NCBI RefSeq assembly: GCF_964199755.1
Contig: NC_133917.1
Location: 5,833,967-5,897,966 of the forward strand
Length of the DNA: 64,000 bases
Direction of reading: 5' to 3'
Source: Larus michahellis
Taxonomy: Eukaryota > Chordata > Aves > Charadriiformes > Laridae
The notes under the pieces: generated by a model
The model's database searches: none
Seen by the model: only the letters and a program-made list of their open reading frames with translations
What the model was told of the DNA's origin: nothing
Translations under genes and position numbers: made by a program
Shown: piece after piece, positions 30,151 through 64,000 of the stretch
How the letters are laid out: each line of letters begins with the position of its first letter
Position numbering within the stretch: position 1 is the stretch's first letter

Positions 30151-30554
30151 CGCAGCCAGCGGGTGGGCGACCGGGATCGGAGCCGTTCCTCCCCCAACCC
30201 CACCCGGGGCGAGCGGCGGGCGCCAGCCGGTGGTCACCGCCCAGCTGGTGGCTGCGATAACCGTTATCGGGGCAGGGCTGGGGCTTGGCCAGCTGCTGTT
30301 GGCAAGCGGTGGCCAAACAAGTCGTGTGTGTGTGTGTCCCCCCCCCCGCCCCGCCCCCAGATCCCGCCCTGAGCACACACACGGGGGCGGGTTGTTTTTC
30401 CTTCCTTTTTGTTTGTTTTGGTTTTTTTTGTTGTTTTTTTTTTTTTTGGTTGGTTTTTTTTTTTTTACTTACATTAAATACATCGGTAAATCAGCGGGTT
30501 GGCGTTCTGTTACCATGATTGTTATTTAAATGCGAGGGAGGGGCTTTCTCCAAG

Positions 30555-30680
30555 AAAAAAAAAAAAAAAACAAAAAAAAAAACAACAAACACAAACCCCA
30601 AAAATAAAATAATAATAATTATCAGAAAAGAAACAGAAGAAAAAGGAAAAAAAAGAAAAAGAACGAGAAAAGCCGCAGTG
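30555..30680. repeat. A-rich low-complexity tract
   Basis: A runs with CAAA, AAT and GAAA interruptions. In the RAB5B sense it is U-rich and lies in the probable 3' UTR. Confidence 0.8.
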
Positions 30681-51952: not shown

Positions 51953-63675
<11,723 letters not shown>

Positions 63676-63737
63676 GGCCACCTGCGACACGTGTGACATG
63701 CGTGACACGTGTGACACGGGGACGCCCACACCTCTTT

Positions 63738-63815
63738 GGGGGGGGGGAGGCGGGAAAGGGGGTGCGTTGGGGGCGGACGCCCCCAACGCACCCCCTTTCC
63801 CGCCTCCCCCCCCCC
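63738..63815. repeat. Perfect palindrome: 38-bp arms, 2-bp spacer
   Basis: Bases 63738-63775 are the exact reverse complement of 63778-63815, separated by GA. I paired all 38 positions. Each arm holds ten G/C, then AGGCGGGAAAGGGGGTGCG and a G5 run. It ends 63 bp upstream of the DGKA start codon and lies in the DGKA 5' region. Confidence 0.97.
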
Positions 63816-64000
63816 TCGCCGCCATCTGCCCACGCGAACCCACACGCCAACGTCACGCGTGTGCGGGCCCCCGCCTTTGAGCTTTGAACCCCGGCCAGGC
63901 GTCACCCGTGGGTGGCACCGTGACGTGGGGGACATTCCCCCCCCTCCTTCCCCACCCCCCACCCCCCCCCCCGGACGAGACGGTAGGGTGACACGCGCCA
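63816..64000. other. DGKA 5'-flanking sequence
   Basis: Remaining 185 bp upstream of DGKA with C runs. A possible acceptor (GTCGCAG) lies just before the DGKA ATG near 63682, so a noncoding exon may lie here or right of the window. Nothing else was recognised. Confidence 0.4.

Follow-up and report, generated by a model that had tools for sequence, protein, structure and literature searches.

A perfect 78-bp palindrome upstream of the DGKA start codon in Larus michahellis, probably formed by local template switching

Introduction

The window, by which we mean the whole 64,000-nt stretch that was analyzed (C26:5833967-5897966), lies on a 7.03-Mb contig (C26) of a 1.4-Gb assembly of 616 contigs, and close to its end a long and exact palindrome stands just before the start codon of a gene that we take to be DGKA. 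How did such a structure arise at this site, could it be an artifact, and does it serve the gene beside it?

Results

Structure of the palindrome and its position relative to DGKA

All of the arm positions are complementary (38/38), and the flanking bases at 63737 and 63816, both T, do not pair, so the perfect palindrome reported in the initial annotation (63738-63815, 38-bp arms, 2-bp spacer) holds in both coordinates and exactness. Its placement just upstream of the DGKA start codon (63675-63673, minus strand) was likewise confirmed, the gap to the ATG being 62 bp. The features of the locus are as follows.

63738..63775, no strand assigned: left arm, 38 bp, G-rich on the plus strand (by sequence comparison)
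63776..63777, no strand assigned: spacer, GA
63778..63815, no strand assigned: right arm, 38 bp, exact reverse complement of the left arm
63738..63773, plus strand: G-quadruplex-type motif of the left arm (regular expression: four G-runs, loops up to 7)
63780..63815, minus strand: mirrored G-quadruplex-type motif of the right arm (regular expression)
63750..63757, minus strand: E2F-like TTTCCCGC of the left arm (one per arm)
63796..63803, plus strand: E2F-like TTTCCCGC of the right arm (one per arm)
63676..63737, minus strand: 62 bp from the palindrome to the ATG, with a candidate acceptor CGCAG/GTGG (exon side from 63681)
63609..63675, minus strand: DGKA first coding exon, from the ATG to a GTGAGT donor at 63608-63603 (by translation)
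61937..63530, no strand assigned: minisatellite in the DGKA intron after the first coding exon, with units of 174-176 bp and multiples

The G-quadruplex-type motifs of the two arms lie on opposite strands, which bears out the earlier remark that each arm carries G-runs with quadruplex potential, and the G/C runs of both arms are exactly 10 long (G10/C10). A further G-quadruplex-type motif occupies 63937-63972 on the minus strand, 120 bp past the palindrome.

Genomic setting

Contig C26 is GC-rich near the palindrome and abundant in G/C runs. The gene is assumed to be DGKA on the basis of the human DGKA N-terminus, a GGDGTVGW motif deeper in the gene, and the neighboring genes. Peptides of 12 genes were used as queries against a contiguous 104-kb block; six were recognized (RPS26, IKZF4, RAB5B, CDK2, DGKA, and PYM1), and ERBB3, SUOX, PMEL, MMP19, PA2G4, and TMEM198 gave no match in that block with the peptides used. 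The order found matches that of human 12q13 and fits a bird dot chromosome. PYM1, the second exon of which was recognized by peptide match, lies on the plus strand and starts at about L004:1725 (by eye), ∼2 kb off and head to head with DGKA.

Several other repeats and one distant match were observed. In the gap between DGKA and PYM1, a degenerate minisatellite built on CCCGGTAGAGCC (by eye; L004 ∼120-1150) makes up most of the first kilobase past the window. It ends at a CRE/GC-box-like stretch (∼L004:1190-1260) with a candidate donor CAG/GTACGG. Within DGKA, degenerate tandem arrays of GGAC type and CATCCC type are present at 58049-58769 and 59025-59661. On a large contig, C10:15555031-15555079 (L003) matches the DGKA first coding exon over 49 bp with 90% DNA identity; this is probably a diacylglycerol kinase paralogue.

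Chance expectation and scan for inverted repeats

We searched 20 order-4 Markov shuffles of the window, allowing spacers of up to 20, and the longest perfect arm of each was 10-16 bp. The genome sample for further comparison was 304 kb, made up of 224 kb of contig C26 (the window and 16 stretches) and 80 kb of other contigs (eight stretches). In it, the runner-up perfect arm with a spacer of up to 8 was 18 bp long, a T/A run in L005, and when spacers of up to 50 were allowed, a 19-bp arm with a spacer of 43 was present in L010. The 38-bp palindrome is far beyond chance.

The same 304 kb (the window and L004-L027) was scanned for near-inverted repeats with centers each 8 bp and arms within 120 bp, the reporting threshold being a score of at least 26 in the main scan and 24 for six further loci. 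The matches were as follows.

Window 63776, score 38: the DGKA palindrome
Window 30520, score 28: AT-rich run
L006 4696, score 42: RPS26 near-palindrome
L006 8280, score 27: AT-rich run
L021 1192, score 52: repeat-like pair with a long loop
L023 2088, score 24: the sole match at threshold 24 among the six loci

Besides the DGKA and RPS26 cases, the 104-kb block reached the threshold of 26 only at the two AT-rich runs. Facing T-rich and A-rich tracts ∼80-110 bp apart at 30406-30612 yield many overlapping imperfect inverted repeats. The inverted pair in L021 (∼1120-1275, contig C30), around GATATATGGAAATTTTGGAG, has a ∼60-nt loop, more matching sequence at its flanks, and, by eye, the look of a repeat element. 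Long-spaced inverted pairs (L017, L020; other contigs) were excluded from the count of short-spacer palindromes.

The maximum score in 300 short controls (order-3 Markov, 400 bp) was 17, and a 400-kb order-5 control sequence contained zero scores of 18 or above. The top scores in four 224-kb control sequences were 16, 18, and 20, with none of at least 16 in the remaining one; since one of these later controls reached 20, the weak end of the score scale is less clear-cut than the 400-kb control implied. At a threshold of 16, C26 gave 28 matches in 224 kb versus 1, 1, 1, and 0 in the four 224-kb Markov controls, and the contigs other than C26 gave 2 matches in 80 kb. The weaker matches at this threshold may largely be facing low-complexity runs.

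A near-palindrome upstream of RPS26

At L006:4636-4751 (C26:5828602-5828717), 69 kb from the DGKA palindrome, lies a near-palindrome with arms of 55 and 56 bp and the spacer ACTAC. Its full extent was taken from the inverted list of a self-BLAST, the direct-repeat counts of which went unused as too low for the visible tandem arrays. The arms are identical in 52 of the 56 aligned columns and differ by three substitutions and one indel; the score of 43 compares with maxima of 17 in the 300 short Markov controls and 20 in the four 224-kb controls. No further copy was found in the assembly. The structure ends 79 bp short of the RPS26 ATG, and a TATA-like box follows it. After it, the minus strand continues with CTATATAAAGG, a pyrimidine-rich stretch that by eye resembles a ribosomal-protein start site, ATG/GTGAG (A at L006:4556), and the RPS26 coding sequence. 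The energy of its RNA hairpin was −133.5 kcal/mol. The RPS26 case suggests that a large palindromic structure can occupy an otherwise ordinary-looking promoter.

Age and uniqueness of the arms

Age calculations assumed 2e-9 substitutions per site per year. With no difference among its 38 pairs, the DGKA palindrome comes out younger than ∼20 My (95%), and for the RPS26 arms three substitutions in 55 pairs correspond, at the assumed rate, to ∼14 My (range, ∼3 to 40). The initial description of the DGKA palindrome as possibly very recent was overstated: the data support the upper bound of ∼20 My and no narrower one, and the equal G10/C10 runs add little by themselves. Equal run lengths are not unusual; when G/C runs of at least 8 in the 104-kb block are paired at random, 26% of the pairs match.

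When up to 3 mismatches were allowed, the 28-bp arm core had two matches in the 1.4-Gb assembly, which are the two arms, and its reversed control had 0. The arm core thus occurs only as this pair, in immediate proximity, on genome-wide word counts that may be lower bounds, very common words having been skipped. The lack of further copies favors a local origin and disfavors a mobile element. A 400-bp query of the locus matched itself in full and in mirror image and gave one 49-bp match on C10, confined to the DGKA exon part of the query; with this query, neither an alternative haplotype contig nor another copy of the locus turned up in the assembly. When the arms were aligned to the flanks as a test of polarity and microhomology, similarity did not exceed the 95% level of the shuffles in any of four comparisons, and neither arm stood out as the original one.

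Predicted folding and consequences for the transcript

As single-stranded DNA, each strand can form a stem of 37 bp closed by a 4-nt loop, with a predicted −57.6 kcal/mol for the plus strand. The RNA hairpin is predicted at −97.2 kcal/mol, in agreement with the earlier expectation of a very stable hairpin if the palindrome is transcribed. Given this stem and the G-quadruplex-type motifs on opposite strands, hairpin and quadruplex would compete. A stable hairpin kept in an mRNA leader would very likely hinder ribosome scanning. As it would block the mature leader, DGKA is expected either to initiate transcription within the 62 bp or to remove the palindrome by splicing. The sequence would allow the latter, since L004:1185 is a modest donor and AG sites lie past the C-rich arm.

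Discussion

Origin of the palindrome

We consider it probable (roughly 0.7) that the palindrome is the product of a short-range template-switch event during DNA replication, a reading drawn from the product as it stands in one assembly. The nascent strand would have switched template at a G-run-rich site on a small chromosome, ∼38 nt of just-made (or sister-strand) sequence would have been copied in reverse, and the strand would then have returned to its template; the result would be an exact inverted duplication around a 2-bp center. Replication stalling at the G-runs may have been the trigger, and the palindrome may be near neutral; its persistence would fit a location that is probably outside the mature mRNA, either ahead of the transcription start or within an intron of the 5′ UTR.

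The perfect inverted repeat with its short spacer (38/38 pairs, spacer 2) and the confinement of the arm core to this pair are what such an event would leave, and template switching is reported to make perfect stems in one event (PMC8794818, PMC7954356). Both RNA genes and great apes have furnished descriptions of such events (PMC8794818, PMC7954356); the largest template-switch-like pattern of one of these studies, of up to 59 bp, failed quality control (PMC8794818). Much local sequence copying is described for avian dot chromosomes (PMC12954441). Support also comes from the G-quadruplex-type motif, from the repeat-laden surroundings, and from the second, decayed inverted duplication before RPS26 on the same contig. 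In the 80 kb of other contigs, a sample small for judging chromosome specificity, the sole comparable match is the repeat-like inverted pair with a long loop. The best explanation for both structures is template switching, the DGKA event being without visible decay and the RPS26 event decayed; recurrence rests on n = 2 cases, too few for a statistic.

The initial annotation held that a palindrome of this length and exactness is usually unstable. Long exact arms with little spacer are indeed described as risky, yet ∼180,000 near-perfect human palindromes >40 bp are reported in the same review (PMC7999016), so that the statement holds only in part. Examples from other systems are a 79-bp inverted repeat beside an induced break in hamster cells (cited in PMC7999016) and the 460-bp palindrome used in a study of E. 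coli (PMC4245961).

Alternative explanations

The palindrome would be an artifact if a fold-back or library template-switch read had become the consensus on a poorly covered GC-rich chromosome, one arm then being unreal. The G/C runs of exactly 10 in both arms, the richness of the neighborhood in GC and homopolymers, and the occurrence of fold-back reads at ∼0.55-0.6% of ONT genomic reads (PMC12870357) speak for this possibility, which was also raised in the initial annotation and which we regard as unlikely. Fold-backs as classed in that study have their mirror axis at the read midpoint and were all but missing from the HiFi data among its three PacBio samples (PMC12870357), whereas here the mirror stops after 38 bp and the flanks, judged in the assembly, differ on the two sides. 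Because these flanks have no second copy (apart from the 49-bp C10 exon match) and DGKA and PYM1 keep their expected head-to-head order, a fold-back artifact is a poor fit; moreover, the RPS26 arms differ at four places, as those of a fresh fold-back would not. A whole-read fold-back was rejected, the symmetry being confined to 38 bp between unlike flanks; a small library artifact is unlikely. It is scarcely credible that the palindrome descends from a transposable element with terminal inverted repeats: the arms are inverted with almost no interior, but no other copy of the arm core was found in the 1.4-Gb assembly with as many as 3 mismatches tolerated, and nothing beyond a single T could serve as a target-site duplication. 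A TIR transposon or MITE was rejected, no dispersed second copy of the arm core having been found.

That the inverted repeat is kept as a promoter dyad, with paired E2F-like sites or a cruciform/G4 switch tuning DGKA, seems to us improbable. The palindrome is 62 bp from the DGKA ATG, the RPS26 inverted repeat precedes a TATA-like box, each arm has an E2F-like site, inverted repeats are preferentially located upstream of transcription starts in many genomes (PMC13155455), and some non-B motifs change promoter activity in human MPRAs (PMC9105345). However, outside G4 and Z-DNA motifs no MPRA effect held in both cell lines (PMC9105345), and the DGKA and RPS26 palindromes had no match to each other in genome searches. 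The window contains 10 TTTSSCGC sites, the two arm sites included, against a mean of 9.24 in 100 shuffles, 41 of which reached at least 10. Since these sites are at chance level and inverted duplication doubles any motif, the E2F-like motif noted for each arm is present but selection on it is without support. Nor is the upstream position alone a sign of selection, given the general preference of inverted repeats for such positions (PMC13155455). We think it very unlikely that the palindrome closes a 5′ UTR intron at its 3′ end, with the C-rich arm as polypyrimidine tract, an arrangement whose origin might still be template switching. In a splice-site scan with a weight matrix, suggestive at most, the top-scoring donor of the 2.4-kb stretch was CAG/GTACGG at L004:1185, beside the CRE/GC-box-like stretch (by eye), the sequence from there to the palindrome is mostly minisatellite, like the local intron fill, and AG sites come after the C-rich arm. 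The donor score is nevertheless modest (4.0, with near rivals at 3.7, 3.7, and 3.4), pyrimidines make up just 56% before the consensus-like acceptor CGCAG/G, and the exon of the C10 paralogue seems by eye to reach well upstream of its ATG.

Significance and comparison with known systems

Many genes once thought missing lie on avian dot chromosomes, where local growth of direct repeats has been described (PMC12954441). Two strong inverted duplications on one small chromosome, the first perfect and the second slightly decayed, each end <80 bp before a start codon and suggest that strand switching may remodel regulatory sequence as well. This possible recurrence ahead of genes deserves further attention and can be tested directly with existing long-read bird genomes. 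More speculatively, promoter-proximal inverted duplications might be a recurrent, unreported instability of bird dot chromosomes and the inverted counterpart of the stuttering described below, in which G-run/G4 barriers would provoke strand switching and promoters would acquire, lose by decay, and re-acquire palindromes. Among the best-ranked matches in the open-license literature, none described palindromes of this type from bird dot chromosomes.

Correction of a quasipalindrome to a palindrome (the Ripley model, cited in PMC7954356) would perfect an imperfect inverted repeat but needs a prior quasipalindrome, of which there is no evidence here. The perfect inverted repeats surveyed across the tree of life (PMC13155455) have arms of at least 10 bp and spacers of up to 8 and, like the one here, lie upstream of genes, their preferred location; the longer eukaryotic arms in that survey are enriched in AT/TA, whereas the 38-bp arm at DGKA is GC-rich. 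Sequence stuttering on avian dot chromosomes (PMC12954441) shares with our locus local copying in GC-rich gene neighborhoods. It affects intergenic sequence too (PMC12954441), and the adjoining DGKA intron contains tandem arrays that resemble the intron repeat growth described for dot chromosomes. Stuttering, however, is depicted as imperfect direct repeats, chiefly in introns, and the DGKA structure is one perfect inverted copy in front of the ATG. The main text of that paper contains none of the terms "palindrom-," "inverted repeat," and "hairpin" (PMC12954441). Template switch mutations under the four-point model (PMC7954356, PMC8794818) have in common with the palindrome an exact inverted duplication, a tiny spacer, and an apparently local source. 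Our case differs from them in being very GC-rich with G-runs, on a small bird chromosome, and beside a start codon, and in being known from its product alone rather than by comparison with an ancestral allele. An inverted duplication made by template switching is nonetheless of a known kind.
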